The notes under the pieces are model-generated. The model was given only the letters and a program-made list of their open reading frames with translations, had not been told where the DNA came from and searched no databases. Shown here in pieces: positions 23,759 through 42,888 of a stretch of 64,000 bases of DNA. The DNA lies in contig DASXUQ010000012.1 of NCBI GenBank assembly GCA_036504735.1, positions 62,001 through 126,000 of the forward strand, in the 5' to 3' direction. The position numbers and the translations under genes were made by a program. This DNA comes from a bacterium. Its GTDB lineage: Bacteria > Electryoneota > RPQS01. The first letter of the stretch is position 1; each line of letters begins with the position of its first letter.

Positions 23759-23811
23759 ACCGATGGCAAAGAACTGAGACCATTTTCAACGTAACCTATA
23801 AGGGCTTCTCC

Positions 23812-25244: not shown

Positions 25245-26117
25245 CTATGGGGTTTGGGCAGCGGCTTGGATCTTGTTCAGCAAGTCCTGGGACTCGGTAA
25301 GCATGGCGGTGTTGTCCTTAAGGATGATATGCAGCCACGCCTGAGCTTGGGACGCGTTGCCTTTTTTCAATTCAAGATTGGCGCGCAACCAGCGGAATTC
25401 GGCCTTGCGGGTGGAACGCGGATCCATACTCAGCCCCTGGCGCACCGCAGCGGCGGCCAGATCGAGATGGTTGTTCAGATACGCGGATGAAGCGAGGTAC
25501 AGCCAGACCTCCGGCTTATCCGGCATCTCTTTGCTCAGGCGCTGCAACTGAGTTTCCGCGGCGGGCATGTCGCCGGCCACATACGGCTGCATGGCCTGTT
25601 GAAACCGCTCCTCTTTAGGATCGCCGTCTCCGCGCGGCGTACTGATTGCAAAGGGCAGCTTGGCCGTGGTCGCTACGGCGGCCCAGCGCGCGGCTTCCGG
25701 ATCGGTAGCAGGTTGCTGCGCAGCGGTATCGGCTGGCGGAGGTTGCTGCTGGGCCACCTGCGGCTTGTCCGGCGCCTTGTGATCCGAGAGCGGATTCACC
25801 AGCAAAAGAATGGCGACAATGGCGGCAAGGCCCAGCGCGGCGGCGAGCAGCCACGTCACACGGCTGGGGCGGCGGGATGGTGCGGTCTGTTTCACAATAT
25901 TCTCCTGAAGTCGCTGAACGATAGTCATCCGGTTAGCCGATAAAGTCTGTAAAGATTTGGCCGCCTGGGTCAATTCATCGCGACAGGCGGTGCAGGTGAG
26001 CACATGGTCTTCAAAACGCTGCGCGGACGGCTCATCCAGCGTGCCCAGCGCATAGGGGAGTAGCAGCGAGCCGAGGGACAGGTCCGTGCAGAGAGGTTCG
26101 GATTCGGACGGCTTCAT
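25245..26117 (-). CDS. transmembrane zinc-finger anti-sigma factor with TPR-like periplasmic domain
   Basis: A 290-residue protein. The cytoplasmic N-terminus has the ZAS pattern PYALGTLDEPSAQRFEDH followed by H38-x3-C42-x2-C45, the zinc site of ECF anti-sigma factors. One membrane helix lies at about 87-107. A Pro/Gln/Ala-rich linker follows, then a domain of about 120 residues with TPR-like helices (EERFQQAMQPYVAGDMPAAE onward). The ATG at 26117 overlaps the stop of the sigma gene as ATGA, so the two are co-translated; a start at 26156 would sit inside the sigma gene. It should hold the sigma factor at the membrane until its outer domain is altered. The neighbouring exported CHAT protease is the obvious candidate for that (inference). 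Confidence 0.88.
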   Translation of the reverse strand: MKPSESEPLCTDLSLGSLLLPYALGTLDEPSAQRFEDHVLTCTACRDELTQAAKSLQTLSANRMTIVQRLQENIVKQTAPSRRPSRVTWLLAAALGLAAIVAILLLVNPLSDHKAPDKPQVAQQQPPPADTAAQQPATDPEAARWAAVATTAKLPFAISTPRGDGDPKEERFQQAMQPYVAGDMPAAETQLQRLSKEMPDKPEVWLYLASSAYLNNHLDLAAAAVRQGLSMDPRSTRKAEFRWLRANLELKKGNASQAQAWLHIILKDNTAMLTESQDLLNKIQAAAQTP

Positions 26118-26689
26118 AAATCCACCTCCATCAGTTTCAGCAAATGGCGGCGGCAAAGATACAGCCGGTGGTCAAACGCGGAGCGTTTCATCTCGGGATG
26201 ACCTTCGCGGAAGGTCGCCCAGATCTCGCCGACGGACAGTCCTCGCAGAATACCGACGAGCAGACTGCGGCACGGCTCCCCCATGCGGCGGATGGCTGTG
26301 GCACATGTCTGGATGGTGTCGCGGTCCTCAACCTGCCGCACAAAATGCGCGGGCGTAGCCGCCGCAGGATGATCGCCGTCCAAGGTTACACTCGTCGAAC
26401 CGGACAGGCGTTGCAGCTCGTTGCCGATCCGGCGATAGAGGATGCCCCGCACATACGCCGTAGGCGAGGTGTTGACCTCGGCCACCTTCTGGGAAAAGAT
26501 GGCCAAGGTATCCTGCACGATGTCTTCGACCAGTTCACGCGATTTGCCGGGCAGGCGGTACGTGGCAATGGCGATCAGGCCGCCGCGGATCGCGCCGCAA
26601 AACGCGTTCAGGCAGTGGATATCTCCCTGCTGCGCACGCCCAAAGAGGCTCTCCAGATCGAGATGCGGCGATTTGCTGGCGATGGTCAT
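26114..26689 (-). CDS. ECF-type RNA polymerase sigma factor
   Basis: A 191-residue sigma-70 family protein. Region 2 is seen in ELVEDIVQDTLAIFSQKV (helix 2.2/2.3, about 50-72) and region 4 in PCRSLLVGILRGLSVGEIWA plus the following helix with RSAFDHRLYLCRRHLLKL (about 140-188). Only regions 2 and 4 are present, as in ECF factors. It directs transcription of genes responding to an envelope or extracytoplasmic signal. The gene starts 27 bases after the CHAT gene and overlaps the anti-sigma gene by four bases. No strong ribosome site precedes the ATG, which fits translational coupling to the upstream gene. Target promoters cannot be identified here. Confidence 0.9.
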   Translation of the reverse strand: MTIASKSPHLDLESLFGRAQQGDIHCLNAFCGAIRGGLIAIATYRLPGKSRELVEDIVQDTLAIFSQKVAEVNTSPTAYVRGILYRRIGNELQRLSGSTSVTLDGDHPAAATPAHFVRQVEDRDTIQTCATAIRRMGEPCRSLLVGILRGLSVGEIWATFREGHPEMKRSAFDHRLYLCRRHLLKLMEVDL

Positions 26690-26716: not shown

Positions 26717-29700
26717 TTAATGTCCGGCGGAAACGCGCCAGTCACCCGACGCGACGAATCCCGCCCAATAGTAAGGATGATCCGAAAAACCCGTCTGTCG
26801 CATCTTCTGCCGCTGTTTGAGCATGGCGTTGCGCAGCGCGGACGGGATGTTCCGCTCCGGCCCGAACGTCATGGCGCTCATCAGTTCGGCGGTCCAGCGG
26901 TCATCCACCCGCCAGAGAGAACTGAGCACCGTTCGCGCTCCGGCCAGTTCAAAGGCGCGGCGCAAGGCAAAGACGCCTTCACCGGGAACGATCTTTCCCA
27001 CTCCGGTCTCACAGGCCGAGAGCACCACCAGATGCACCCGGCAGAGGTCCAGCGCCGCAACTTCTTCGGCGGTGAGAATGCCGTCATCCATGCCAAGGCT
27101 GTCCCGGTCTGCACCTTTGAGGTTGGCACCCGCCAGAGCCAGGCCGCTGGTAAGCAGCGGGTTCTCTTCGGAAAAATCGCGCAGCTTGCCCGGTATTCCC
27201 TGCGTGCGTGGTGCGATGCAGTTGCCGTGAATCCAGAAACCGTGCGTGGCAAGGTAAACCGTTTGGGCGAAGGGTGCGCGGCGCTTGAAAGCATCTTCGG
27301 TGGCGGCGGCCCCGGTCAGCAACTGCGCGCCGGACTTGTCCTCTGAAGGCCAAAGGTCGAGAATGGCCGCGCATTCGGCGGCGGTGCCGGGAAGTCTCTT
27401 CCAGTGAATGTCACGGAAGGCGCGGCACTCGGAGCGGATGTTTGGGGGCGCAACGCCGGAGGCTTCTGCAGGCGTTGCAATGGAGGCGAAACGCTCGGGG
27501 GCGGCGGCATCGTAATCCGGATCGCCCATAACCAGCAAGCCACAGGATGCGGCACTGTCTGGAGTGCTGGCCGCCGCGCGTACAAGGTCACGTCCGGAGG
27601 AAAGATAATGGAATGCGTGCGAATCTACAAGGTATCTGCCCTGCGAATTGACCAGCGCGGCAAAGGCAAGGGTGTGGATGTCACCATCGGGCGCAATAAA
27701 CACCAGGTCTTTGCCCCGGCAGGCGGCGGCGACGGGTTTCCACAGGCGGTCATAGAGGGCGCGCGCAACCTTCTTGTATTCGAACTCATCGAGGGCCACG
27801 GGGTTGGCCATCTCCTCGCGCCAGCGGGCGATCAGTTCTTCTATGGGTGCGGCGGCTCCGAGCCGCGTAGCGGTGATTGTGCTGTCGGGCGAGACGGTGA
27901 TGACCAGATAGCGCGGCTCACTCTTCCGCAGACTCAGCCGATGGTCGTACTTGACGAATTCGACCAGCACCGCGTTAGCAGGCAAAGCCGAGGCGACCTG
28001 CGATGGCGTGCAGTTCCATAGCGGATCGTTCCCGTGATCGCGCGGACTGCGCGCCGCGAGGGAATCCTGCCAGCGCTGTTCACGGCGGGACAGACTGTCC
28101 AGATACGGCACCAGCGGCTCGCCGTCGGCGGACGCCTGAGCGCGCACGTACACATTGGCGAGCAGTGTGCGCACCGCCAGCAGGGAATCGGTGATGGCAG
28201 CGAGCGTGGCATCACGCTGCTCATTTGCGGTTTTCAGCCGCGCGCTGAGAACATCCCATGCCTGCGCCTTGGTGCCGAAAACCGTAGAAGCTAAATCATG
28301 CACGGCAGCGGAGTCGGGAAAGGCCTCACTTGCCAGCGTGTAGAAGCGGGCTGCTTCGTCCTGCAATTCGCGCGCCAGGCTGAGCACGTAGCGCTCGGAA
28401 AGCACGCTGACGGCGTCGCGCATTACGGTCTGGCGGATGGACCATGCGCGGCCTTCCTGTCTCAAGGGGTTGAGATCATTTTGAGGATCGGTGAAGATAC
28501 CGTCGGGCCGTACGTCGCGCTGCATCCAGGCCATGCGCTGACAGCTCTCGGCAACGTCGGGATGCATATTGCCATAGATGCCGTAGCGCAGCCAGAGAGC
28601 ACGCTGCTGAAAATAGCGCGCCATGTCGCCACGGCCCGTCTCATAGAGGAATTCGGCAAACGGTTCGTAGAAGCCGGAGAGCCGTGGATCCGCTTTGGGG
28701 TGAATGATCTCCGCCTTGACGAGCGCCGCCCAGTAGTAGCGCTCGGCTTTGTCCTTGTCCCCCTGCAAATCATAAAGCCGTGCCAGATCGAGCACCAGAT
28801 AGGAGAAAGCATCCTCGCCGGATTGAAGCCCGTCGACCGCCACCTCGTAGGCCTTGCTGAGCAGGCTGTCCGCCGCGGTAAGATTCCCGCGCTCCATATA
28901 AGTCCGGCCCAGTTCGGTCAGCGTCGACACATAGAAATAGGGCGGGTTGTATTCGCCGCAGTCTTTCCAGAGGGAGATGGCCCGGGTGTACATGGGCGCG
29001 GCTTCGTCGAAACGGCCCAGTGCGGTCAGGCATTCGGCCAGCCAAGTGTAGCCTCGCGCGGTCTGACAACCGTGCGGGCCAAATTCAGCTTCTATGCCGG
29101 GGAGTGACTGACGGTAGAGCGCAAGAGCCTCGGCAGGCTCCCCTGCGGCAAACAGGTCCTCGGCCCGCATCTGCAACACCATAGCATAGGTGGGAAAGCC
29201 GTCATCCGGTTGCGCCGCCGCAATCGACAGGAGCCGCCGGCTGTATTTCGCCGCTTCATCGGGCCGCATGACTTCCCGCATGCCATTGTGCAGCCACCAC
29301 AGCCCGAGCCGCACATTCGCGCTGTCGGCCCTGTCATGGCGCTCGAGAATCCCCAGCGCGGTGATTTCGGCGCGCAGCGCGTTGCGCTGCACGGCATCGC
29401 TGAAAACCGACGCATCCTTGCGGCCCGTGGTCCGGCCCCACTGGAACAGGATCTTGGCATAGCGCAGCGAATCGCACCACGTACAGTGGCGGCAACTGTC
29501 CAAGGCCGCAGCAAGACCGGGCTCGGCCTGCAAAATGGAGTAGCGGCCCAGCGCATCGTATGTGGCCGCCAGAGAAAAATTGCAGAGCAGCGCCAGCGAA
29601 TCCTGGGCGCGGGGAGTCTGGGAGCAGAGCGTGGAGCAGGCTTGCAGAAATCTTAGCGCGCTGTCGGCCTGATTGAAAAAGCGGTACGCGTCGCCAAGCC

Positions 29701-29911
29701 GGAACTGCTGCGCGGCAAAAAAACGGCTGTGCTCTCCTTGCTCACGGCGAAGATCTTCAAGCTGGCTGCGCAAGAGTGTCAGCGCGCTGTCGGCAGGCAG
29801 GCGCCACGTAGGATCGTCCTCCTCGAGGGCTATCCAGGGCCGTGGCGCGGCAGCCGATGCAGCAAGGCTGGCCAACGCAAGGATTAACAGGATATAAATG
29901 CGGGATGGCAC
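26717..29911 (-). CDS. exported TPR-CHAT caspase-like protease
   Basis: A 1064-residue protein. The N-terminus is a signal peptide (MPSRIYILLILALASLAASA), which implies export. Residues about 40-640 are many TPR-like helical pairs (for example AYTWLAECLTALGRFDEAAP-type segments). The last 380 residues are a CHAT domain, a caspase-fold peptidase, with catalytic His890 in YLATHGFW and Cys967 in LSACETGVG. CHAT enzymes of TPR-CHAT type cleave specific protein partners, as in the type III-E CRISPR Craspase. It is the first gene of an operon with a sigma and an anti-sigma factor. The start is GTG at 29911. No CRISPR or gRAMP gene is nearby. The likely substrate is unknown; the anti-sigma outer domain is a candidate. 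Confidence 0.92.
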   Translation of the reverse strand: MPSRIYILLILALASLAASAAAPRPWIALEEDDPTWRLPADSALTLLRSQLEDLRREQGEHSRFFAAQQFRLGDAYRFFNQADSALRFLQACSTLCSQTPRAQDSLALLCNFSLAATYDALGRYSILQAEPGLAAALDSCRHCTWCDSLRYAKILFQWGRTTGRKDASVFSDAVQRNALRAEITALGILERHDRADSANVRLGLWWLHNGMREVMRPDEAAKYSRRLLSIAAAQPDDGFPTYAMVLQMRAEDLFAAGEPAEALALYRQSLPGIEAEFGPHGCQTARGYTWLAECLTALGRFDEAAPMYTRAISLWKDCGEYNPPYFYVSTLTELGRTYMERGNLTAADSLLSKAYEVAVDGLQSGEDAFSYLVLDLARLYDLQGDKDKAERYYWAALVKAEIIHPKADPRLSGFYEPFAEFLYETGRGDMARYFQQRALWLRYGIYGNMHPDVAESCQRMAWMQRDVRPDGIFTDPQNDLNPLRQEGRAWSIRQTVMRDAVSVLSERYVLSLARELQDEAARFYTLASEAFPDSAAVHDLASTVFGTKAQAWDVLSARLKTANEQRDATLAAITDSLLAVRTLLANVYVRAQASADGEPLVPYLDSLSRREQRWQDSLAARSPRDHGNDPLWNCTPSQVASALPANAVLVEFVKYDHRLSLRKSEPRYLVITVSPDSTITATRLGAAAPIEELIARWREEMANPVALDEFEYKKVARALYDRLWKPVAAACRGKDLVFIAPDGDIHTLAFAALVNSQGRYLVDSHAFHYLSSGRDLVRAAASTPDSAASCGLLVMGDPDYDAAAPERFASIATPAEASGVAPPNIRSECRAFRDIHWKRLPGTAAECAAILDLWPSEDKSGAQLLTGAAATEDAFKRRAPFAQTVYLATHGFWIHGNCIAPRTQGIPGKLRDFSEENPLLTSGLALAGANLKGADRDSLGMDDGILTAEEVAALDLCRVHLVVLSACETGVGKIVPGEGVFALRRAFELAGARTVLSSLWRVDDRWTAELMSAMTFGPERNIPSALRNAMLKQRQKMRQTGFSDHPYYWAGFVASGDWRVSAGH

Positions 29912-30090: not shown

Positions 30091-32940
30091 TCAGGGCTGA
30101 GTCGCGGCGAGTCCTGTTACCGGCAAGGTCGCATGAAACACCGTTCCGCCGTTGATATTACTTTCAAACTCCACCGTGCCGCCCAGAGCTTCCACCAGTG
30201 AGCGGGTGATAGACAGACCCAGCCCCAAGCCGCCGGTGGTGAGATAGTCCTTGGTGGTAAAGAAGGGCTCGAAGACATGGGGTTTGGCTTCTTCGGGAAT
30301 TCCCGCACCCTGATCGGCGACGGTCAGCAACAGGTTGTTGCCGTTGACATGGGCGCGGATATAAACGGTGGAACCCTTGGGCGACGCTTCGATAGCATTC
30401 TGCAGCAGATTGAAGAGCACCTGCTTCAAAGAATCGCGGTGCATGGTGACAATCTGCTCGGCCTCCTGCGTGTCTACTTCAAGATGCAATTCCTGGGCGC
30501 GCAAGGTGGACTCGAGCAGGCTGATTACGTCACGCACGGCTTCGGCGGGATTAAACACATCCGGTTCATGCGGCGAAGGCCGGTAGAGTTCGAACATCTG
30601 GCGCACGATGCGGGCGATGCGGTCTAATTCGGTTTCGATGCGCTCGGTGTACTGATAATTGGGATGATCGACGGGCACCGCTTTCTTGACCAGCCGGAAG
30701 GACATCCCGACCCCGGCGAGGGGATTGTTGATCTCGTGGGCGATCCGCGCCGCCATGCGGCCCACCGCGACTTGCTTTTCACTTTCGAGACGCTGGCGTT
30801 CGAGTTTTTCGATCTGCGCCGTGCGCTCGGCGACGAGCTGTTCAAGATGGTCGGCGTGCAAGCGAATCTGCTCTTCGGCGGCCTTGCGCGCACCGACGTC
30901 CATGAAGGTCCCGACCAGGCGCACCGCGTGCCATCTCTTGCCGCTGCCTTCGAAGTACGCCTGCCCCTTGGCCGAGAGCCAATGCACCGTGTCATCCCAC
31001 GGCCAGACGGTGCGGAATTCGATCTCGTAGCGGCCGTCGGAGGAAGGATTGACCGCTTCCACCAAGGTCCGGTCCACCATGGCGCGGTCTTCGGCATGAA
31101 TCAGGCTGAGGACCTGCTCATATTTCAACGCGTCGGCATCGGGCACCCCGAACAGCAAGCGGCAGCGTTCATCCCACAGCACGTCGCCGGTTTGCAGATT
31201 GTAGTCCCACGTGCCAAGGCTGGCCGCTTCCAGCGCGAGCCGTCGCTGCTCCGCCGCTTCCAGCAGCCGCTCTTCGGCCTGTTTGCGCAGCGAAATATCT
31301 TCAATCATGGCCGTGATGAAGCGCAGCTTGCCGCGCGCATCCCGCACACCGAAGAGGGTGACACTGCCCCAGATAGGGCCGCCGTTCTTGCGGACGTAGC
31401 GCTTCTCGACACTCTGGCGGCCACGGGCTCCCGTCTCCATGGCGGCCAGCAGTTTCAGGCTGCTTTCCGAATCATCGGGATGGGTAATGCCCGCGACGCC
31501 CAACCGGCGCAGTTCATCGGGAGTCCAGCCGAGCATCTTCTGCACCGCCGGATTGGCGTCCAGAATCTGACCGCGAGGATCTTCGAGCAAAATGCCGATG
31601 GACGATTCGGCGAAGATGGCACGGAACCGCTCTTCACTTTCCCGCAGCGCTTCATTGATATGCTTGCGCTCGGTGATGTCGCGGTTGATCTGCAGGAAGG
31701 ATACGCCGCCGCCGTTCTTGCGCGCCACCCAGCGGCTGGCGACGATGATCCGCTTGCCCTCGCGCGTGGTATGTTCCAGTTCCGCCGCGTAGCTGCCGTC
31801 GCGCAGCAGCGCCGCTTTGATGTTTTCGAAGCTCTCCGGGAAGTTGGTCAAAAGCAGTTCGTAGGCAATCATGCCCACCGCCTCGTTGCTCTTCCAGCCG
31901 TAAGTCTCTTCCGCGCCGTGATTCCAGTAGAGGATTCGATCCTCGAGGTCGCACACCAGAATGGCATCCTGCGCCAAGTCAAGCAACTCTGCCTGTTTGC
32001 GCAAGGCGCTGCTGATACTCTGCCGCTGGCGCATGTCCCGCTCAAGACGCTGATTGGCTTCGCGCAGCTCGTCATTCACCCGCTGCAGCGCTTCGTCGGT
32101 GCGGTGCATACGGGAAATATCCACCGAGGCACAGACAATGCCGGTGATCTTCCCTTCCTCGTCCCGCACCGGTTCGACCGACAGGCTGTAATGAGTCGTG
32201 GCGCCGTGCAGCGTAATGCTGACGTCCTGCTCAATGCGCTCGCCTTCGGTGAGGACCTTGCGCTTGAGGTCGACGAGCGGTCCGGCGGCTTCGGCGCCGA
32301 GGATCTCTTCATCGGTCTTGCCGACAATCTCCCGCAAATTGGTAATCGGTGGTGCAGGATTATACACCCAGGTGTAACGAAGATCACGGTCCTGCAGCCA
32401 GACCGACACGGGAGAATTCCGCAGCGCCAGGCGCAAGTGCTTGTAGCGCTCATGCACGGCTTCATCCGTGCGGTGCTGCGCGGCGGGCGGCTCGGCGGAT
32501 TTCTGCGCGCCCCGCGAGCTACGGCCCAACACGCGCCGCAGCGTGAAGGCGAGCATGCCGCTGGCAGACTGCTGCGGCGTGACCACTTCCGAGGCTCCGG
32601 CGGTCAGCAGTTCCATCACCCGCTTCCAATCCTCATGAGCGGTCAGCACCACCACCTTGGCTTTGCGCACGCCGGGCAGAAGATCCAAGGCATCGCACTG
32701 CGGCGGCGAGTCGTTCAGCAGGATCAGATCGAAGCCGGCTTTTTTCAGTGAAGCGGCGGCATGGGCCGGGTCGACGGTGGAGAGTTGGATCTCCGCGGAA
32801 CTGGCCTTCTTCAGCGCCGATGTGAGGCCGCTGGTGCCCTCGGGCTGACTGCCCACCCAGAGCACTTTCAGCACCGCCTGAGCCTCCGCAACATTCGGGG
32901 ACTTTTTTGTTGGCATAGTGGGACGTTTTGATGTCATCAT
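30091..32940 (-). CDS. soluble multi-PAS hybrid-like sensor histidine kinase
   Basis: A 949-residue protein without signal peptide or membrane helix. Residues 24-140 resemble a receiver fold (KVLWVGSQPE, DLILLNDSPP, KVVVLTAHEDW) but without a clear set of receiver catalytic residues. Four PAS domains follow at about 165-280, 315-425, 435-555 and 565-690. HisKA contains RIAHEINNPLAG with His735. The ATPase domain has the N box NLLQNAIEAS (844-853), DQGAGIP (876-882) and GGLGLGLS (903-910). The kinase should sense an internal signal and phosphorylate an unlinked response regulator. It is transcribed alone. It shares the whole architecture with the kinase at 51760-54915 and is its paralogue. Confidence 0.93.
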   Translation of the reverse strand: MMTSKRPTMPTKKSPNVAEAQAVLKVLWVGSQPEGTSGLTSALKKASSAEIQLSTVDPAHAAASLKKAGFDLILLNDSPPQCDALDLLPGVRKAKVVVLTAHEDWKRVMELLTAGASEVVTPQQSASGMLAFTLRRVLGRSSRGAQKSAEPPAAQHRTDEAVHERYKHLRLALRNSPVSVWLQDRDLRYTWVYNPAPPITNLREIVGKTDEEILGAEAAGPLVDLKRKVLTEGERIEQDVSITLHGATTHYSLSVEPVRDEEGKITGIVCASVDISRMHRTDEALQRVNDELREANQRLERDMRQRQSISSALRKQAELLDLAQDAILVCDLEDRILYWNHGAEETYGWKSNEAVGMIAYELLLTNFPESFENIKAALLRDGSYAAELEHTTREGKRIIVASRWVARKNGGGVSFLQINRDITERKHINEALRESEERFRAIFAESSIGILLEDPRGQILDANPAVQKMLGWTPDELRRLGVAGITHPDDSESSLKLLAAMETGARGRQSVEKRYVRKNGGPIWGSVTLFGVRDARGKLRFITAMIEDISLRKQAEERLLEAAEQRRLALEAASLGTWDYNLQTGDVLWDERCRLLFGVPDADALKYEQVLSLIHAEDRAMVDRTLVEAVNPSSDGRYEIEFRTVWPWDDTVHWLSAKGQAYFEGSGKRWHAVRLVGTFMDVGARKAAEEQIRLHADHLEQLVAERTAQIEKLERQRLESEKQVAVGRMAARIAHEINNPLAGVGMSFRLVKKAVPVDHPNYQYTERIETELDRIARIVRQMFELYRPSPHEPDVFNPAEAVRDVISLLESTLRAQELHLEVDTQEAEQIVTMHRDSLKQVLFNLLQNAIEASPKGSTVYIRAHVNGNNLLLTVADQGAGIPEEAKPHVFEPFFTTKDYLTTGGLGLGLSITRSLVEALGGTVEFESNINGGTVFHATLPVTGLAATQP

Positions 32941-33172: not shown

Positions 33173-34732
33173 TTAAAGGTCATTACCCGAGTAGGAGAGG
33201 TTGAAGCTTTTGTTGATCAAGGGAAAGTCGGGGACGATGTTGCCGCGGCCGGCATAGCCGAGCACGGTCCAATTGAGGAAGGAAGGATCCCGCACGTCCA
33301 CGCGGCTGATCTGGCCATCGGCATCGGTCGCCACAAGGTAGACAATTTCGCCGCGCCAGCCTTCCACCATGCCGGTGGCAAAGGAACTCTTGCGGAAGAC
33401 CGGAGCGGGCTGCTTCGCAGCGGTCTTCGGGGGCAGAGCGCTTAACGCCTGTTGAAGGATTTCGAGGGAGGCGTAGGCTTCCTTGACGCGCACCCGGTAG
33501 CGCGCATAGACGTCGCCGCTCTCTTCGGTGGCAACATGGAAGCGGAATTTGGAATAGGCCGCGTACAGATAGTCTTTGCGCACGTCGGCATCGAAACCCA
33601 CGGCGCGTCCGGCCACACCCACCACCCCATGATCCGCCGCCACCTGCTTGTCCAGAGTGCCAGTGCTCTTCAGACGGTTGAGCAGAGTGCTGCTGTTCTC
33701 GGCGATGGTTATGATTTCGGCAAAGTCTTCGCGCAGCGCCGGCAGGCTCGCCGCAATTTCTTCCGCCGCAGCGGCACTGATGTCGCTGTTCAGGCCGCCG
33801 ATCCGCATCACACCGCGCAGAAACCGGCTGCCGCAAAGGCGCTCATGGTGCTGCATGATCATTTCCCGCAGCCGTCCGCCGTGTGCGCCGCCGAAGTTGA
33901 AGCCGGTATCGGTCATAATGGCGCCGATGTCCCCGAAGTGATTGGCCAGCCGCTCGAGTTCGGCAAAGATCACCCGCAGAATATTGTCGCGCTCGGAAAC
34001 CTCTGTGCCGCTTAAAGACTCCAACGCAAGGCAGAAGGCCAGCGCGTGGGAAAAGGAACTGTCTCCGGAAATGCGCTCGGCAAGCTTCAGCTTTTGATCA
34101 AGCGGCAGCACTTCGAAGAGCTTCTCGCTGCCCTTGTGCGAATAACCCAGCCGCGGCTCGAGCATCAGGACCTCTTCTCCTGCCACACTGAAGCGGAAGT
34201 GTCCGGGCTCGATAATTCCCGCATGCACCGGCCCCACGGGAATCTCGTAAATGCCTTCCCCGCCCAGCTTGCGGAAATGGAACCGGCCATCGGCGATAGC
34301 GGGACGGGTGCTGTAGACAAAATCTTTGCGCAGAGGGAAGACATCTTCGGGCCAGTTCTCGTGCAGAATCAGCGAGCGCGGGTTGGGATGACCCAAGGGT
34401 GTCAAACCAAAAAAGGTCTTGATCTTGCGCTCGTACATCGAGGCTTCGTGGATCGCGGGCGTGAGCGACAGAAAGGTATCTTTGACCCGAATGCACGGAG
34501 CGACAAAGAGATTCTCCTTCGGCACGGCAAACAGGTACATCATACGGAAGAAACCGGATTCGCGGCGCTCATCGAAGGCAGTGATCGTCTTCAGCGGCAG
34601 ACGATGCTGAACATAAAGCCGCTCGCACACGGAGACGATCTCCTGTGCGGAGACTTCACACACCGCCAGGTTGCCGTGCATCGTGGCCGGGTGCGGAAGA
34701 TAGCGTTGAAGTATGGTAGAAGGTGTGCTCAT
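33173..34732 (-). CDS. HyfG/NuoCD-like large subunit without NiFe cysteines (Ehr type)
   Basis: A 519-residue protein. The N-terminal 140 residues are a 30-kDa (NuoC-like) domain with YERKIKTFFGLTPLGHPNPR; the rest is the 49-kDa/large hydrogenase subunit fold with VGPVHAGIIEPGHFRF (166-181). In group 4 NiFe hydrogenases the N-terminal ligand motif is RxCGxCxxxH; here it is R220-ISGDSSFSH with Ser222 and Ser225. The C-terminal DPCxxC is DPSFLN with Ser484 and Asn487. All four nickel ligands are absent, so it cannot be a NiFe hydrogenase. It is also not standard complex I, because it sits in a Hyf-like operon. This matches the Ehr complexes. It is the last gene of the operon, followed by a terminator. 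Confidence 0.88.
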   Translation of the reverse strand: MSTPSTILQRYLPHPATMHGNLAVCEVSAQEIVSVCERLYVQHRLPLKTITAFDERRESGFFRMMYLFAVPKENLFVAPCIRVKDTFLSLTPAIHEASMYERKIKTFFGLTPLGHPNPRSLILHENWPEDVFPLRKDFVYSTRPAIADGRFHFRKLGGEGIYEIPVGPVHAGIIEPGHFRFSVAGEEVLMLEPRLGYSHKGSEKLFEVLPLDQKLKLAERISGDSSFSHALAFCLALESLSGTEVSERDNILRVIFAELERLANHFGDIGAIMTDTGFNFGGAHGGRLREMIMQHHERLCGSRFLRGVMRIGGLNSDISAAAAEEIAASLPALREDFAEIITIAENSSTLLNRLKSTGTLDKQVAADHGVVGVAGRAVGFDADVRKDYLYAAYSKFRFHVATEESGDVYARYRVRVKEAYASLEILQQALSALPPKTAAKQPAPVFRKSSFATGMVEGWRGEIVYLVATDADGQISRVDVRDPSFLNWTVLGYAGRGNIVPDFPLINKSFNLSYSGNDL

Positions 34733-34736
34733 AGGA

Positions 34737-36185
34737 TCACCGGATAAAAGATGCCGCCGACTCCAGCAGAGCCTTCAGCGGCTCCGGCACCACAACGCCG
34801 ATAATAATCAGCGTGGACAGCAGAATCACCGGCGGCAGCGTCGTCATCAGGTTGGCTTCTCCGGCGGGCAGCGGCTCGGCGGATTTGCTGAAGGTCATGG
34901 CCACGATGTGCCGCAGGAAGCCGATGAACACCAGCGCCAGCATGGCAATGACCGTGACCACCACGGCGGGATGTGCGGCCATGCCCGCCGTCAGAATGTA
35001 GACTTCGGTCAGGAACATTCCGAAAGGCGGCGTACCGGTAATGGAGAGAAAGCCAAGAATCAGAATCAATCCCGTCAACGGCAGCGCGGGCAGAAGACCC
35101 TTGATGTTGGCGATTTTGGTGGAGCCGAACTTGATCAGCACATTACCCGCCGAATAGAACAGGATCGATTTGGACAGGGAGTGGTAGATCATGTGCAGCA
35201 AAGCGGCAAACGCGCCGAGGCCGCCGAAGCCGAAACCCAGCGCCAGGATGCCGACGTGCTCGATACTGGAATAGGCGAACAGCCGCTTGTAGTTGCGCTG
35301 CGGGAACATGATGAACGCCGCCACCACCACCGAGACCACGCCGAAAAAAATCATCAAATTCTGCGAGAAGTGCGGATCAATCGCCTTGTCGGTCACCATC
35401 TTGAAGCGCAGAATCGCCAGCACGGCCACATTCATCAGCGCTCCCGAGGAGAGCGCGCTGATGGGAGACGGCGCCTTGCTGTACGCGTCGGGCAGCCAGG
35501 TATGCATCGGTACCAGGCCCGCCTTGGTGCCGTATCCGATCAGCGCGAAGATAAAGGCAATCTTGGCGACCAGCGGATCCAGCCGCGAGGCATTGGCGAG
35601 CAATACCTGCCAGTTAACCAGCAGGTCGGCAGGCAAATCGCGTGTGGCGGTCATAAACAGCAACGTGCCGAAGAAGCCGAGCAACAGGCCGATAGAATTG
35701 ATGATCAGATATTTCCACGCCGCTTCCATCGAACTGGACTTGCTGTAGAAGCTAATGAGAAACGCGGTGGACAAGGTGGTCGCTTCGATGGCGATCCACA
35801 TCATAATCGGATTCACAGTGGACACGGCAAAGAACATGGCCATCAGAAACAGATGGAACAGCACAAAATACTGTTTCACCCGCCGCAAACCGATAATCTG
35901 CTTGCGCACTTCCTCGCGCAAATAGCCCATCGAATAGAACGCTGCGGCCACGCCGACCACTGCAACGGTCAACAAAACAATGGTGCCGAGGGCATCCACC
36001 GCCAGCAGCGAATCAAACCCGCAGCGGCCTTCCCTTCCCACCTGCGCGGTAATGACGGCCACCAACGCCGCCTCGCCCAGCGCCGCCACGGCGGCAATCG
36101 CTTCAAACGTGCGCGTGGCTTTTCCGGCCAGCAAAGTGGCCAGCGCAGCGGCCAGGGGAATCAAAATCAGAAGCAGCAGGACCAT
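34737..36185 (-). CDS. HyfF/NuoN-like proton-translocating membrane subunit
   Basis: A 482-residue integral membrane protein with about 14 hydrophobic helices. It has the antiporter-like fold, with the helix-5 glutamate in MMWIAIEATTLSTAFLIS, the helix-7 lysine in IGYGTKAGLVPMHTWLPDA, a conserved loop AYSKAPSPISALSSGALMN and further charged helix residues (YKRLFAYSSIEHVG). These are the residues used for proton pumping in complex I and energy-converting hydrogenases, so the pumping machinery looks intact. It follows the HyfE-like gene with a one-base gap and precedes the HyfG-like gene by four bases. Confidence 0.92.
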   Translation of the reverse strand: MVLLLLILIPLAAALATLLAGKATRTFEAIAAVAALGEAALVAVITAQVGREGRCGFDSLLAVDALGTIVLLTVAVVGVAAAFYSMGYLREEVRKQIIGLRRVKQYFVLFHLFLMAMFFAVSTVNPIMMWIAIEATTLSTAFLISFYSKSSSMEAAWKYLIINSIGLLLGFFGTLLFMTATRDLPADLLVNWQVLLANASRLDPLVAKIAFIFALIGYGTKAGLVPMHTWLPDAYSKAPSPISALSSGALMNVAVLAILRFKMVTDKAIDPHFSQNLMIFFGVVSVVVAAFIMFPQRNYKRLFAYSSIEHVGILALGFGFGGLGAFAALLHMIYHSLSKSILFYSAGNVLIKFGSTKIANIKGLLPALPLTGLILILGFLSITGTPPFGMFLTEVYILTAGMAAHPAVVVTVIAMLALVFIGFLRHIVAMTFSKSAEPLPAGEANLMTTLPPVILLSTLIIIGVVVPEPLKALLESAASFIR

Positions 36186-36186
36186 A

Positions 36187-36846
36187 TTAATCGTGCAGTT
36201 CCTTCATGGTGGTGACGTCCAGCGAGCCGTGCTGGCGGAAGATCATCGCGGCAAACAGCGAAGCAATCACAATCCAGATCAGAATATTGAACGTGATGCC
36301 GAGCTGCAGGGCGGGGTTCTGCTCCAGCCCGGCAAACAGCGCAAAGGCCACGATGCCGTTCTCCAGCGACAGGATGCCCAGCATCTGCGACAATGCGCCC
36401 TTGCGGTTAATCATCAGGAACATCGAAATCAGAATCGTGGCAATGGAGGTAATCAGCAGCGGCGTCTGCCCGGAGGGGGCCAGTCTGACCAGCGGCTTGA
36501 AAAAATCGGTCTGCACCAGCGCAACGAGCATGGCAATCACCGCCAGCGTGAGCGGCGCATTCAGATAGGTGCTGACCGAAAACCGGAGCTGATGATGGCG
36601 GATGAGCCGGAAGAAGAAATACGGCGCGATCACCAGCTTGACGGCAATGGTGGAAAGAATCGCCAGTGCCAGAAGCGGCGAGAACTGCTCAAACGTCGCC
36701 AGCACCAGCAGGCAGGCAATGGCGGCGGATTGCAGGATGTAGAGCGCGACGGCGGAGGAATTTTTGTGCGTCAGATGCAGAAACACCGCCGGGGCAAACA
36801 CTACGGTCGCCAGCATCAGCAGAATTTGCGGAAGAATATGTTCCAT
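36187..36846 (-). CDS. HyfE-like membrane subunit (NuoK-related)
   Basis: A 219-residue protein with about six or seven membrane helices. The C-terminal half carries the NuoK-like pattern MLGILSLENGIVAFALFAG with a glutamate in a membrane helix. The N-terminal half has KLVIAPYFFFRLI, typical of HyfE. In formate hydrogenlyase-type complexes HyfE links the antiporter-like subunits to the core. The gene is tightly packed in the operon (four bases after the HyfC-like gene, one base before the HyfF-like gene). Confidence 0.88.
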   Translation of the reverse strand: MEHILPQILLMLATVVFAPAVFLHLTHKNSSAVALYILQSAAIACLLVLATFEQFSPLLALAILSTIAVKLVIAPYFFFRLIRHHQLRFSVSTYLNAPLTLAVIAMLVALVQTDFFKPLVRLAPSGQTPLLITSIATILISMFLMINRKGALSQMLGILSLENGIVAFALFAGLEQNPALQLGITFNILIWIVIASLFAAMIFRQHGSLDVTTMKELHD

Positions 36847-36850
36847 AGGT

Positions 36851-37780
36851 CTACAGCGTCAATCCGAGAGCGATGATGCTCACGATGAAGGAAGTGAACA
36901 GCAGGTCCGGCAGCCGCATGATGCGGTACTTGGCGATGCTCGATTCGATGACGGCAATTGCCGTACTGAATACGGCGGCCTTGAGCAGCAGCGAAAACAG
37001 CCCGAGCAACAGCGGACCGGCCTCGAGAGTGTGGGCAATGCCCCACGGGAAAAAAAGATTGGCTCCCAGCGCAATGAACAGCAAATACTTGTTGGCCGAA
37101 GCCCATTCCATCAGCGCCAGCCGCTTGCCGGAATATTCGATGAGCATCGCTTCGTGGATCATCGTCAATTCCAGATGCGTCGCCGGATTATCGAAGGGAT
37201 AGCGGCAGGTTTCGGCAAGCAGCGCAATGGCAAAGCCCACAAAGGCGAGCAGAATCGGTGCGAAGGCCGGGAAAGGCAGCGCCGTAATCGTCGCGGCGAT
37301 GGTGGTCAAATTGGTCGAGTGGCTGATGAGCGCCAGCGTGAGCAGCGAGAGCACCAATCCGGCTTCCGAGAGCGCGGCCACCAGCATTTCGCGGCTGGAT
37401 CCGAAACCGCCGAAACCGCTTCCCGTATCCATACCCGCCAGCGCCAGAAAGAACGTTCCCAGGGCCAGCAGGTAAACCACCACCAGAAAATCGCCGGTGA
37501 GCGGGTTGGTGAGCGCGGTCGAGAGCAGCGGAATGCTCGCGCCGACAATCAGCGTCACCGCGAAAATCAGGTACGGCGCGGCGCGGAACAGCCAGGAGGC
37601 ATCCTCACTGATCACCTCGTCCTTGGCAAACAGCTTCTGCAGATCGCGGTACGGCTGAAAGCAGGACGCGCCGGTGCGGTTCTGCAGCCGCGCCTTGATC
37701 TTGCGCGTCAGGCCCACATAAAAGGGCGAGAGCGCGGGAATGAGGATAATATGAAGAACCCAGATGAGACTTGCGGGCAT
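36851..37780 (-). CDS. HyfC/NuoH-like membrane core subunit
   Basis: A 309-residue membrane protein with about eight helices. The hallmark is ETCRYPFDNPATHLELTMIH followed by EAMLIEYSG, the acidic loop conserved in HyfC/EchB/NuoH that connects the hydrophilic module to proton channels. A further membrane glutamate is in ALSEAGLVLS. The longer reading frame extends to 38173 but runs through the HyfB-like gene in another frame. The ATG at 37780 (MPASLIWVLHIILIPALSPF), 15 bases after the HyfB-like stop and with AAGG upstream, is the plausible start. The family length is about 310 residues, in agreement. Confidence 0.92.
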   Translation of the reverse strand: MPASLIWVLHIILIPALSPFYVGLTRKIKARLQNRTGASCFQPYRDLQKLFAKDEVISEDASWLFRAAPYLIFAVTLIVGASIPLLSTALTNPLTGDFLVVVYLLALGTFFLALAGMDTGSGFGGFGSSREMLVAALSEAGLVLSLLTLALISHSTNLTTIAATITALPFPAFAPILLAFVGFAIALLAETCRYPFDNPATHLELTMIHEAMLIEYSGKRLALMEWASANKYLLFIALGANLFFPWGIAHTLEAGPLLLGLFSLLLKAAVFSTAIAVIESSIAKYRIMRLPDLLFTSFIVSIIALGLTL

Positions 37781-37794
37781 GATGCGGATGAACC

Positions 37795-39840
37795 TTAGAG
37801 AACGTGGACCAGCAGAAGGCCGATCAGGGCGAGAAAAATGTACAGAATGTAAGCGTTGATGTTGCCGCTTTGAATGCGCCGGGTTTGCGCGGCGATACGG
37901 TCGGTGAGCTGCCGCAACGGCTGATACAAATAGGGCTGATAGATGTCGCGCAATTTCAGCGTCACGGTTTCCGTCTTGGGGAAGTAGCGCAACCGGTCGT
38001 CGTGATATTCGATGTCCGTCTGCTTCGTAGGCCGCAGCACGCCTTTGAAGACGGTAATAATCGAGCGCGAAAAACTTGTCGCGGTAATTTCCATGCGTGG
38101 CGTCAGTTCGCCGCCGCAGTTCCACGTTGGGCCGATGACAACCTTGCGTTTTCCGGCGAGCACGGCCACCCATGCGCCGGCTGCCGCCATCGCTAAAATC
38201 AGAAGGAGCAGTACGGCAGGCATGGACACAGAGGCGAACCCCTGGGGCAGTACCACCGCCGCCGGGCTGAATTCCGCCATAGGCATGACGCCAACCAATG
38301 TGCCGGCAATGCTCGCCAGACCCCGCGAGACCATGCCTGCGCCCGCGCCGAGCAGCAGTGTGGCGATGGCAAAGCCCGCCATGCCGATGCGCAGGGACAG
38401 CCCCGCTTCCTTAGCGTGCTGGGCTTCGGTGCTGCGGGGCCGCGCCAGAAACGTGGTGCCGAAAACCTTGACAAAGCAGGCGGCGGCCAAGCCGCCGGTG
38501 AAGGCCAGAGAGCCGATGGCAAGAATAAAGGGAAAGCCCTTCAGCACATCGAAGGCGGTGACGCCGTTGAACAGCGTCTGGAAGGTAAGCCATTCGCTGA
38601 AAAAGCCGTTGAACGGCGGCAGCGCGGAGATGGCCATGGAACCGACTAAGAAGAACAGCGCGGTCTGCGGCATATGCCGGATCAGCCCGCCGTACTCTTC
38701 GATGTTGCGGGTGTGAGTTTCGGAAATCACCGCGCCCGATCCCAAAAACAGCAACGCTTTGAAGGTCGCGTGATTCATGGTGTGGTAAAGCGCCGCCATC
38801 AGCCCCAGTACGGCCAGCGCGGAGTGTCCCAGCGCGGAAAACACCAGCGAACTTCCCAGCCCCAGCAGAATAATGCCGATATTTTCGATGCTGTGATAGG
38901 CCAGCAGCCGCTTCAGGTCATGCTCGGCTAAGGCATAGAGCACACCGAGCAGCGAGGAGACCGCACCGATGATCAGCACCACGGTTCCCCACCAGAGCAT
39001 GGGATGAGGCAGCAATTCGAGGCCGATGCGGATCAGCATGTAGATGCCGGTCTTGATCATCACACCCGACATCAGGGCCGAAACATGCGACGGCGCGGCA
39101 GGGTGCGCGCTGGGCAGCCAGATATGCAGCGGAATAATGCCCGCCTTGGTGCCGAAACCGATCAAGGCCGTCAAAAAGACGGCACTGAGCAACGTGGGCG
39201 ATGCGCCGGGAAGCGCCGCCTTGATGCTGTCGAAATCGAAGGAGCCCGCCACGCTGAACATCATCAAAAAGGACACCACAATAAACGCGGTGCCCAGATG
39301 CGTCATTACAAAATAGAGTGTGCCCGCCTTGATGCTGGCCTTCTCCCGGTGCTCGTAGATTACCAGGAAATAGGACGCCAGAGACATCACTTCCCACACG
39401 ATCAAAAACCAGAGCCCGTTGCGCGCCGTCACAACAAGGAGCATGCTGGCAATAAAGCTGTTGTAGAAAAAGCCCAGCACACCGATATTGTATTTGCCGT
39501 AGTAATGGCGCGCATAACCGAGCGCATAGATGGAACAGAGCAGCGCCACGGCCGAAATGACCAGCATGAAAAACCCCGACAGCGAGTCGAGGCGAATGGA
39601 CAGGGAAAGCAGGGGGAAGGAAGATTCGGCATTGAAGACTGGAGTTCTGCCTCCGATCAGCGCGGCTCCCGAGACGGCAACACCCAGCGCCGATCCCACG
39701 ATGGCAAGCCAATGGCCCCAGAGATTGGCGGCATGGTCGCGGCCCTTCAGCAGCAGCGAGCCCAACGCTCCGGCGGCAAACAGAACAAAGATCGCAGAGA
39801 ATCCTGCTTCGGACGTAAGGTTATCGAAAAGGTCTATCAT
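37795..39840 (-). CDS. HyfB/NuoL-like proton-translocating membrane subunit
   Basis: A 681-residue membrane protein of the NuoL/HyfB antiporter-like family. Seen are the helix-5 glutamate in FLIVWEVMSLASYFLV, the helix-7 lysine in IGFGTKAGIIPLHIWLPSAH, KRLLAYHSIENIG and HTMNHATFKALLFLGSGAV with the next lysine. About 15 helices are followed by a C-terminal polar part (PTWNCGGELTPRMEITATSF) usual for HyfB, and a last helix. Its start ATG overlaps the stop of the NuoB-like gene as ATGA. It is the largest ion-pumping subunit of the complex, and every pumping residue I can recognise is present. Confidence 0.93.
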   Translation of the reverse strand: MIDLFDNLTSEAGFSAIFVLFAAGALGSLLLKGRDHAANLWGHWLAIVGSALGVAVSGAALIGGRTPVFNAESSFPLLSLSIRLDSLSGFFMLVISAVALLCSIYALGYARHYYGKYNIGVLGFFYNSFIASMLLVVTARNGLWFLIVWEVMSLASYFLVIYEHREKASIKAGTLYFVMTHLGTAFIVVSFLMMFSVAGSFDFDSIKAALPGASPTLLSAVFLTALIGFGTKAGIIPLHIWLPSAHPAAPSHVSALMSGVMIKTGIYMLIRIGLELLPHPMLWWGTVVLIIGAVSSLLGVLYALAEHDLKRLLAYHSIENIGIILLGLGSSLVFSALGHSALAVLGLMAALYHTMNHATFKALLFLGSGAVISETHTRNIEEYGGLIRHMPQTALFFLVGSMAISALPPFNGFFSEWLTFQTLFNGVTAFDVLKGFPFILAIGSLAFTGGLAAACFVKVFGTTFLARPRSTEAQHAKEAGLSLRIGMAGFAIATLLLGAGAGMVSRGLASIAGTLVGVMPMAEFSPAAVVLPQGFASVSMPAVLLLLILAMAAAGAWVAVLAGKRKVVIGPTWNCGGELTPRMEITATSFSRSIITVFKGVLRPTKQTDIEYHDDRLRYFPKTETVTLKLRDIYQPYLYQPLRQLTDRIAAQTRRIQSGNINAYILYIFLALIGLLLVHVL

Positions 39841-40373
39841 GAACGGGATGGGGTCTCCAGATCGCTCAAAATCGCCAGCAAGGCCACCAGAATCTGACGC
39901 GGCGAGGGCGGATCGCCGGGGATTTCATAGTGTACCGGAATCACATTCTTGACACCATCCAGCGCGGCATAAGACTCTTTGAAGATCCCACCGCTAATGG
40001 CATCATCGCCTACAGCCACAACAATTTTCGGCTCGGGCATGGCCTCATAGGTGAGCACCAGTGCATCCCGCATGTTGCGACTGACCGGGCCGGTGACCAT
40101 CAGCATGTCGGCATGCCGCGGCGAGGCCACAAAGTGCACACCGAAGCGCTCGACGTCGTAATAGGCATTGCCGAGCGCCACCAATTCCTGCTCGCAGGCA
40201 TTCGTGGAACCGGCGGTCACCACGCGAATCGCCAGCGATCCGCGAAACAGCTTGCGGACTTTGGCCTCAATTTCCGCGCCGACACGGTGAAACTCCGCAT
40301 CGGCCCCCAAGGCCTCGCGGCTGATCACGGTCTTCGGTGTCTTGAAAATTTTCAGAAACAGGTTCGTCTTCAT
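39837..40373 (-). CDS. NuoB/HyfI-like small subunit lacking three of four Fe-S ligands
   Basis: A 178-residue protein clearly of the NuoB/HyfI family: YYDVERFGVHFVASPRHADM, MVTGPVSRNM, EAMPEPKIVVAVGD, IPVHYEIPGDPPSPRQI. In the family four cysteines bind one [4Fe-4S] cluster (CxxC, GDC, PGCPP). Here they are Thr57, Cys60, Asp124 and Asp154, so only one ligand remains and a cluster is not expected. It is the first gene of the operon and has no strong ribosome site. Together with the NiFe-less large subunit and the absence of a HyfH/NuoI ferredoxin gene, the hydrophilic arm appears to have no redox centre. Confidence 0.9.
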   Translation of the reverse strand: MKTNLFLKIFKTPKTVISREALGADAEFHRVGAEIEAKVRKLFRGSLAIRVVTAGSTNACEQELVALGNAYYDVERFGVHFVASPRHADMLMVTGPVSRNMRDALVLTYEAMPEPKIVVAVGDDAISGGIFKESYAALDGVKNVIPVHYEIPGDPPSPRQILVALLAILSDLETPSRS

Positions 40374-40617: not shown

Positions 40618-42888
40618 CTATTCGTGCGCCACCGGGACACTGCCCCATGTTTTATTGGGCTCGGGTCCCATCGTGAAAACAATCACACCGCCGTTCTTAA
40701 GTTCATCGTACGGCAGAAAAGGAGTGCTCCATGCTTTGCCGTTCAGACTCACGGACTGGATGTAGATGTTTTTGTCCGAGAGATTCTGCGCCTGCATCAT
40801 AAACACCTTGCCGTTGGACAGATGCACTTTCGCACTCTTCAAGGTGGGGCTGCCGATGCTGTAATCATTGCCGCCGGGGCAGACCGGGTAGAAGCCCAGC
40901 GCATTGAAAATGTACCAGGCGGACATCTGCCCGCAATCGTCGTTACCCGTCAGCGAATTCGGTTTGTTGCCGTACTGCGTCTTCATAATCTCGTGCACGC
41001 GCGCCTGAGTCTTCCACGGCTGCCCGGCATAATCATAGAGGAAGATAATATGATGGCTGGGCTCATTGCCGTGCCAGTACTCGCCGATTCTCCCCTGAAT
41101 GTCATCCACGCCTTTGCCGGTATCCGCCTCCACGACGAACAGGGAATCCAACTTCTTTGCGAAGCGCTCTTTGCCGCCCATCAGCGAGATCAGGCCACTG
41201 ACATCCTGCGGGACATACCACGTGTACTGCCAGCTCGTGCCTTCGGTGAAATCGCCGCCTTCCACGTACTGGTGCGGCTCGAACGGCGTGCGCCATTGTC
41301 CCTGCGAATCCTTGCCGCGCATCAGCCCATAACCTGGGTCGAACAGATTCTTGTAGGCGCCGGCCCGCTTCGTAAAGTACTCGTAGTCACTGGTCTTGCC
41401 CAGCGCCTTGGCCATCTGTGCTACACAATAGTCATCATAAGCATATTCCAGAGTCTTGGAAACCGATTCGTTCTCTTTGTCGCATGGCACCCAGCCAAGT
41501 TTCGCATACGCGGCCACATTATCATAGTGGGGATTCATCGCCGTGGTCTTGACCGCCTCATAAGCGCGCTGGGGATCGAAGCCCTTCACGCCTTTCAGAT
41601 AGGCATCCACAATCACCGGCACCGCGTGATAGCCGATCATGCACCACGTTTCGTTGGCCTGCAAAGACCACACGGGCAGCAGGTGCTCGACGCTCTGGTC
41701 ATAATGCGCCAGCATGGAATGGATCATGTCCGCATCACGCGGAGCCTGAATCAGGGCAAACAGCGGATGCGTGGCCCGGTAGGTGTCCCACAGGGAGAAG
41801 ATCGCATAGTTGGAAAAACCTTCGGCTTTATGCGTGTTGCCGTCAAGACCGCGGTACTCACCGGTCACATCCTGATAGAGATTCGGCGCGAGGAAGGCAT
41901 GGTACATCGCCGTATAGAAGGTCTCCTTCTCCTGCGGCGTGCCTTCAATCTCGATCCGGCCCAGTTCTCTGTTCCACTTCTGCCGTGTCTGTTCGCGGAC
42001 CTTTTCGAAATCCCAACCGGCAATCTCCGCCTCGAGATTCTTCAGAGCATTTTCCGCACTGATGGCCGAAACGGCAACCTTCACCAGAATCTGCTCGTCT
42101 TTGCCCGTTTTGTAGCGGGCGTAGATCTGCAGGCTCTTGCCCGCCGCCTCGGCCTTGCTGCGGAAGCGGTAGCCGTTGTAGAGCACCGGTTTGCCGTCCC
42201 GCACAATACCGTAATCATCGAAGGGCCGGGAATAGCGCGCGGCGAAATACAGATGGCGGTCGCGCGCCCAGCCATTGACAATATGATAGCCTGTCACCGT
42301 CGAATCGTTCTCCACCCGAACCGCCGACCAGATCACATTCCAGCGCAGCACGTGATTCAGATCTGTCAGCACGCAGGCGCTGTCGGTCTGCGGAAAGGTA
42401 AAACGCAGCATACCCGCGCGCTCGGCGGCGGTCAGTTCCACCGTCACCGCCGGTTTCCGAAGCTTCACCTTGTAGTAGCCTGCGGACGCCGTCTCATCGG
42501 CATGGGAATACGGCGAGCGGTAACCGGAATCGGGACGGGCCTTGGGTCCCGGAGTAAACTTCGGCAGGCCGATTTGCGGCATAAACGGGAAATCGCCAAG
42601 GTCAGGAATACCCGTGCCGCTCAGGTGCGTCAGGCTGAATCCGATGATGGAACTGTCGGCATATTCATAGCCCGATGCGGTTTCCCAGAGCGAGTCTTCC
42701 GTGTCGGGGCTGAGCTGAATCATGCCGAAAGGCGCGACGGCGCCGGGATAGGTGTTGCCTTCCCCTTGCGTGCCCACCAGCGAGCGAATGTAGTCGGAGA
42801 GCGCGTTCGATGGCGCCTCAGCGGCGAAGGCCAGGCAAAAGCCGCACAGCAACGCACAGACGCTCAGCGATTTGAGAAGATGTGTCAT
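40618..42888 (-). CDS. GH92-family alpha-mannosidase-like glycoside hydrolase
   Basis: A 756-residue exported enzyme with signal peptide MTHLLKSLSVCALLCGFCLA. It shows the family GH92 pattern: a beta-rich N-terminal domain with VGTQGEGNTYPGAVAPFGMI and HLSGTG, then an (alpha/alpha)6 catalytic domain with FYTAMYHAFLAPNLY, FSLWDTYRATHPLF and WCMIGYHAVPVIVDAYLKG. Near the C-terminus are GNEPSHHIIFLYDYAG and TGNDDCGQMSAWYIFNALG, where the catalytic acidic residues lie. GH92 enzymes are calcium-dependent exo-alpha-mannosidases acting on N-glycans or mannans outside the cytoplasm. Linkage specificity cannot be read from sequence. The gene ends with its own terminator and may be co-transcribed with the lipoprotein gene upstream (42904), whose stop is 15 bases before this start. 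Confidence 0.93.
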   Translation of the reverse strand: MTHLLKSLSVCALLCGFCLAFAAEAPSNALSDYIRSLVGTQGEGNTYPGAVAPFGMIQLSPDTEDSLWETASGYEYADSSIIGFSLTHLSGTGIPDLGDFPFMPQIGLPKFTPGPKARPDSGYRSPYSHADETASAGYYKVKLRKPAVTVELTAAERAGMLRFTFPQTDSACVLTDLNHVLRWNVIWSAVRVENDSTVTGYHIVNGWARDRHLYFAARYSRPFDDYGIVRDGKPVLYNGYRFRSKAEAAGKSLQIYARYKTGKDEQILVKVAVSAISAENALKNLEAEIAGWDFEKVREQTRQKWNRELGRIEIEGTPQEKETFYTAMYHAFLAPNLYQDVTGEYRGLDGNTHKAEGFSNYAIFSLWDTYRATHPLFALIQAPRDADMIHSMLAHYDQSVEHLLPVWSLQANETWCMIGYHAVPVIVDAYLKGVKGFDPQRAYEAVKTTAMNPHYDNVAAYAKLGWVPCDKENESVSKTLEYAYDDYCVAQMAKALGKTSDYEYFTKRAGAYKNLFDPGYGLMRGKDSQGQWRTPFEPHQYVEGGDFTEGTSWQYTWYVPQDVSGLISLMGGKERFAKKLDSLFVVEADTGKGVDDIQGRIGEYWHGNEPSHHIIFLYDYAGQPWKTQARVHEIMKTQYGNKPNSLTGNDDCGQMSAWYIFNALGFYPVCPGGNDYSIGSPTLKSAKVHLSNGKVFMMQAQNLSDKNIYIQSVSLNGKAWSTPFLPYDELKNGGVIVFTMGPEPNKTWGSVPVAHE

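Follow-up and report, generated by a model that had tools for sequence, protein, structure and literature searches.

The six-gene operon at positions 33173–40373 of the window, the whole 64,000-nucleotide stretch of DNA analysed here, encodes a complex I/hydrogenase-like complex of the Ehr family in which no redox centre is recognisable and the proton path is kept. We read the product, from its sequence, as a cofactor-free Ehr variant that would move protons without internal electron transfer, likeliest as a gated proton conductor or an H+-coupled (antiporter-like) transporter. We put the probability of this reading at about 0.5.

The operon lies on the minus strand and comprises six open reading frames (ORFs) in the order S-B-C-E-F-L, which overlap or are separated by a few bases in the ORF list. 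Pfam and NCBIfam assign them to NuoB-like S, HyfB-like, NuoH/HyfC-like, HyfE-like, HyfF-like, and NuoC+NuoD fusion (L) classes, bearing out the Hyf-like complex of six subunits described in an earlier note on this DNA:

39837..40373, minus strand: S, NuoB/HycG-like small subunit, 178 aa (PF01058, 8e-25; alignments to MbhJ, HycG, and NuoB)
37795..39840, minus strand: B, HyfB/NuoL-like antiporter-type subunit, 681 aa (PF00361, 1e-57; NF005086)
36851..37798, minus strand: C, HyfC/NuoH-like subunit, about 309–315 aa, starting at ATG 37780 or TTG 37798 (PF00146, 1e-48)
36187..36846, minus strand: E, HyfE-like (NuoK-related) membrane subunit, 219 aa (PF00420, 4e-6; NF008556, 4e-14)
34737..36185, minus strand: F, HyfF/NuoM-like antiporter-type subunit, 482 aa (PF00361, 1e-49; NF005044, 4e-137)
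33173..34732, minus strand: L, HyfG/HycE-like large subunit (NuoC+NuoD fusion), 519 aa (PF00346, 6e-47; PF00329, 5e-16)

The same-strand neighbours are a multi-PAS histidine kinase (30091–32940, minus strand), ~230 bases downstream, and a GH92 glycosidase (40618–42888, minus strand) upstream. The window also carries a TPR-CHAT domain protein of 1064 aa (26717–29911, minus strand) with an adjoining zf-HC2/TPR protein (25245–26156), a pair that looks like a caspase-like protease module.

The large subunit lacks the CxxC motifs that mark group 4 [NiFe] hydrogenases in both L1 and L2. Four residues had been named earlier as standing in for the NiFe ligands. Two of them, Ser222 and Ser225, do align with the L1 cysteines. 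The other two, Ser484 and Asn487, are not L2: they sit in an upstream D-P-S-F-L-N-W motif, opposite Thr/Asn of the active E. coli HycE/HyfG, and L2 itself corresponds to Ser513 and Gly516 (aligned with FHL HycE, 7z0s_E; SFNLSYSG versus SLDPCYSC). The chain stops right after the L2 motif, with residue 519 as its last, and the Ehr signature DFPLINKSFNLSYSGNDL forms its C terminus. The AlphaFold model of L (pTM 0.86) finds its best PDB match in FHL HycE (7z0s_E; TM 0.87, 28% identity), and that of S (pLDDT 88) in the small subunits NuoB/MbhJ/HycG. The solved structures nearest to L and S are those of E. coli formate hydrogenlyase HycE/HycG, MbhL/MbhJ, and complex I.

A classical quinone site in L was considered and rejected: Tyr87 and His38 of the Nqo4 site of complex I align with Gly223 and Ile174. 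A pocket comprising H178, D268, N507, K508, and D518 is conserved and common to cluster-bearing Ehr, and a comparison with those proteins for pocket residues specific to clusterless members returned none besides Leu45. L therefore gives no hint of a new substrate and has the general Ehr cavity. As judged from the alignment, this likeness could mean a common, possibly redox, substrate, which would count against the redox-free reading.

In the small subunit, the four Fe-S ligand positions are Thr57, Cys60, Asp124, and Asp154 (alignments to MbhJ, HycG, and NuoB), so that one Cys of four is kept and three ligands are gone, as claimed earlier. The claim that the operon has no ferredoxin subunit (HyfH/NuoI) likewise holds: neither S nor the same-strand ORFs around the operon contain a ferredoxin-type C..C..C...C motif, and the HycF/HyfH-type electron-input subunit of group 4 [NiFe] hydrogenases is absent from the operon. 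The features that define complex I at these sites, the N2 ligands in NuoB and Tyr87/His38 in NuoD, are also absent from the window complex. Elsewhere in the window's genome, the sole HyfH-like match sits in the complex I region. Among 12 small patescibacterial hosts of related operons, eight lack any HyfH-like match at E ≤ 1e-3, and four have weak ones.

To place these losses within the family, we scanned named genomes and found at least 576 Ehr-type relatives, 80 of which were kept; 380 and 384 Patescibacteria genomes were sampled further for clusterless members, and L144–L146 were set aside as other hydrogenase-like proteins. Ehr genes are arranged either in the classical order B-C-E-F-L-S or S-first, as S-B-C-E-F-L. 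The earlier note had proposed checking whether cluster loss is general across Ehr, and it is not: the fourth ligand position is Cys in 98% of 63 other Ehr small subunits, and most have all four Cys. Within the window's S-first clade, each of 31 complete small subunits (14 from the first set and 17 from the sampling) has at most one ligand Cys and carries Asp or Asn at ligand position 4. In several members, none of the four ligand positions is Cys and the third is Gly (NAEE / GDG / PGDPP), and the operons of this clade contain no ferredoxin motif. Two operons in which S comes last, after L (L031 and L142), have lost the proximal ligands and kept a ferredoxin-type motif in S; they are placed among cluster-bearing sequences on long branches and look like losses separate from that of the window's clade. 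Cluster loss would then be a trait of one S-first clade plus apparently independent losses elsewhere.

A four-subunit tree (L+B+C+F, about 2000 columns, LG+F+G4 fast search) unites all S-first clusterless operons in one clade (SH-aLRT 100), which adjoins the cluster-bearing S-first operon L175 (support 96); a tree built from L alone did not resolve two clusterless clades. Both trees place the window's L within Ehr and apart from HyfG/HycE, in keeping with the Ehr relationship proposed earlier. The window operon groups with those from Calditrichaeota (L029), Thermoleophilia (L038), and Daviesbacteria (L039) within a clade made up mostly of patescibacteria, a placement suggestive of horizontal transfer.

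Other members of the family show further arrangements. L175 (genome G539) is a patescibacterial S-first Ehr with all four small-subunit Cys and a possible intermediate toward the clusterless clade. Two ferredoxin-type motifs occur in the S ORF of L063, L064, L079, L081, L086, L087, L092, L098, L099, and L110 (mostly Bacillota), suggesting a stepwise loss of redox parts across the Ehr family. A mobilizable Rhodococcus plasmid (L201) carries an S-first six-gene Ehr operon in the window's gene order, near an IS110 transposase and integrases; since this operon keeps all four Cys, the mycobacterial Ehr type is probably cluster-bearing.

The proton path is kept throughout. The Glu/Lys residues that the pumping subunits had been said to retain are in place: Glu150, Lys232, and Glu416, along with H353 and H357, in B; Glu134, Lys221, and Glu394 in F; and Glu139, Asp197, Glu204, and Glu215 in C. 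This check rests on B, C, and F, the HyfE-like alignment being unreliable at the NuoK glutamates. Across the clade (32–35 sequences per subunit), the equivalents of NuoL E144/K229 are retained with Glu at the K399 position, those of NuoM E144/K234 are retained with E or K at 407, and those of NuoH E157/D213/E220/E228 are retained with the sole exception of one E-to-D change at E228. In close pairs, dN/dS is about 0.05–0.15 in S, B, C, F, and L, and lowest in S.

F-type ATP synthase genes adjoin the operon in 14 of the 25 clusterless patescibacterial loci with flanks, mostly on the same strand and at most a few hundred bases from atpC. One or more of these genes were recognised by Pfam at L039, L040, L047, L090, L100, and L102, and by sequence similarity at the others. 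At L163 (2062–13914), S-B-C-E-F-L separates atpG from atpD of an ATP synthase operon, all on one strand and spaced by about 20–30 bases. No such adjacency was seen among the cluster-bearing Ehr loci examined, many of them on short contigs, nor at the window or at L029, L030, and L038, whose hosts are not small-genome patescibacteria. With the adjacent members of the zero-Cys clade counted as one event, adjacency is found in about 5 of 14 lineages, for a binomial probability of about 4e-5 if adjacency by chance is taken to occur at 3%; both this rate and the number of lineages are approximate, and the figure is not a formal tree-based test.

ATP synthase genes are the recurring neighbours, and the operon has no recurrent redox partner gene next to it. 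Downstream of it, two related patescibacteria carry conserved type IV pilus genes (PilM, T2SSE ATPase; L043:8221–15998 and L044:12526–21339). A beta-carbonic anhydrase (PF00484) is encoded at 23695–24684 on the plus strand, about 9 kb from the window operon, and a putative carbonic anhydrase directly downstream of the L090 operon; with these two loci alone, and no other neighbour scanned, showing such a gene, we treated the link as coincidence.

Most hosts in the clade are Patescibacteria that lack complex I, cytochrome oxidase, and molybdopterin enzymes; these absences are soft, as they rest mostly on MAGs of unknown completeness. In all 12 small (0.5–1.1 Mb) patescibacterial hosts, Ehr L is the sole NuoD-type protein and COX1 is absent; UbiA-family matches are absent in six of the 12 and marginal in a seventh. 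UbiA-type prenyltransferases are present in several hosts, the window's included. The molybdopterin enzyme family PF00384 has no match in any of 30 smaller-genome hosts, on which ground we rejected a formate dehydrogenase partner of the kind proposed as an FDH-Ehr complex (PMC6349859). PF00384 is matched once each in G000, G025, and G057 and twice in G061; the G000 and G057 matches fall in the complex I region. The genome of the window's host carries two complex I-type loci as well as terminal oxidases. An ATP synthase a-subunit is present in 18 of 18 host genomes tested. A Na+-type ATP synthase was set aside, the readable c-subunits showing by eye no Na+-type Gln/Ser-Thr signature; several loci gave no readable c-subunit. 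The host of L047 (G070), with a genome of about 0.9 Mb, encodes two ATP synthase a-subunits and two c-subunits.

The loss of redox centres, the selection on the proton path, and the position of the genes beside or inside the ATP synthase operon in many small hosts that lack a respiratory chain together point to an ion-moving machine that is probably not run on electrons. In the mechanism we propose, a complex I/group 4 hydrogenase-type machine would have lost its NiFe site, its ferredoxin subunit or domain, and finally its proximal 4Fe-4S cluster. The proton path, made of the NuoH-like acidic residues and the Lys/Glu chains of the two antiporter-type subunits, would have been kept under strong selection. 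The L/S/NuoH-like cavity would serve as a ligand- or conformation-operated gate in place of the redox site, and the complex would trade energy with the proton-motive force built up or consumed by the ATP synthase. Isolated antiporter modules of complex I conduct protons on their own (PMC11496545), which makes redox-free conduction plausible. A bolder version, in which a primary ion pump of complex I fold is driven by a non-redox exergonic event (a reaction or the binding of a ligand at the L/S site) and feeds the adjacent ATP synthase in bacteria lacking a respiratory chain, is improbable on our estimate.

Just how complex I couples redox chemistry to proton pumping has long been debated. A natural complex without recognisable redox centres, in which the L/S/NuoH cavity and the proton path remain under selection, offers a test of what the membrane arm and cavity do alone. 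The ATP synthase linkage in Patescibacteria bears on how proton-motive force is handled without respiration.

Several other explanations were weighed against the proton-conducting one. An organic two-electron carrier (quinone, flavin, or nicotinamide) at the L/S interface, turned over by a soluble partner, would leave the complex redox-driven without metal centres. The conserved L pocket, common to cluster-bearing Ehr, and the UbiA-type prenyltransferases of several hosts speak for this explanation, but the missing Y87 and H38 of the Nqo4 site, the small hosts devoid of UbiA-family matches, and the recurrence of ATP synthase genes instead of a redox partner beside the operon lead us to regard it as unlikely. 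Alternatively, by analogy with the inorganic-carbon complexes DAB, the antiporter subunits might be coupled to a reaction at the L/S site that involves no redox step (hydration, carboxyl, or proton chemistry). DAB provides the precedent of complex I-type antiporter subunits acting without redox chemistry, and carbonic anhydrases lie near the window and L090 operons; however, the operon encodes no DabA-like protein, a carbonic anhydrase accompanies no further scanned locus, and no clade-specific set of metal ligands was seen, which makes such a reaction a rather long shot.

Electrons might still arrive through an unseen Fe-S partner or a reduced-ligand (Cys/Asp) cluster. Asp occasionally ligates Fe-S clusters, and many members carry it instead of Cys at positions 3 and 4; the weak HyfH-like matches in four small-genome hosts also fit. 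Against this stand the members with no ligand Cys and Gly at position 3, the eight small hosts without a HyfH-like match, and the location of the window genome's only match in the complex I region. A co-varying Fe-S subunit encoded elsewhere, which the earlier note had named as a refuting case, is thus unsupported, and we hold electron supply of this kind to be very unlikely. Its other refuting case, an operon in decay left over from a hydrogenase or Ehr complex, would sit well with the apparent stepwise loss in the family, of the ferredoxin domain and then of the cluster, yet is scarcely credible for the family given the low dN/dS in S, B, C, F, and L, the retained pump residues, and the occurrence of six intact genes in many phyla with horizontal spread. 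With neither refuting case borne out, the reading of an Ehr-like, ion-translocating complex not driven by internal electron transfer is strengthened.

Among known systems, E. coli formate hydrogenlyase and hydrogenase 4 (Hyc/Hyf) have the same membrane subunit types as the window and provide the closest solved L structure; unlike them, the window complex lacks NiFe ligands, the HycF/HycB ferredoxins, the proximal cluster, and a C-terminal extension after L2. Respiratory complex I shares homologous L (NuoCD) and S (NuoB), NuoH/L/M/K-type subunits, and the proton path, whereas the window complex has no N2 ligands, Tyr87/His38 quinone site, or NADH module. Mrp antiporters and DAB complexes are precedents for NuoL/M-type subunits that work without electron transfer. 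The small subunits MrpB/E/F/G are not among the six window genes, which speaks against a standard Mrp-type antiporter, and DabA, the partner of the NuoL-like subunit in DAB, is absent from the six gene products; in contrast to both systems, the window complex keeps L, S, and the NuoH-like subunit.

With Ehr, the energy-converting hydrogenase-related complexes (ehrABCDLS of Geobacter, Methylacidiphilum, and Nitrospira; Rv0082–Rv0087 of M. tuberculosis), the window complex shares six subunits, the loss of the NiFe cysteines from L1/L2, the Hyf-type membrane module (HyfB-, C-, E-, and F-like), and an L signature ending in SFNLSY[SC]GxDL, and its L, B, C, and F nest within Ehr in the trees. In typical Ehr, the ligands of the proximal 4Fe-4S cluster are preserved in S; S is the last gene in many of them and is fused to a 2x4Fe-4S ferredoxin domain in some. 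The window's clade has none of these traits, and the window's S keeps one Cys of four. Those ligands lie outside the definition of Ehr used in PMC6349859 and PMC10284858. Ehr, their missing NiFe ligands, and their presence in CPR were already known (PMC6349859, PMC10284858, PMC6728331, PMC7304191). Our search found no literature on Ehr together with ATP synthase operons, and neither clade-wide cluster loss nor the ATP synthase linkage turned up in the open literature searched, prior notice in Coppi 2005 or Marreiros 2013 being possible. The CPR Ehr large subunits reported by Jaffe et al. 2020 (PMC7304191) are monophyletic, apart from other Ehr, and without NiFe cysteines; the main text searched mentions neither small-subunit cluster loss nor ATP synthase linkage and does not contain the term ATP synthase. 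These CPR Ehr probably belong to the window's clade, to which the present analysis adds relatives from outside CPR, the window included.
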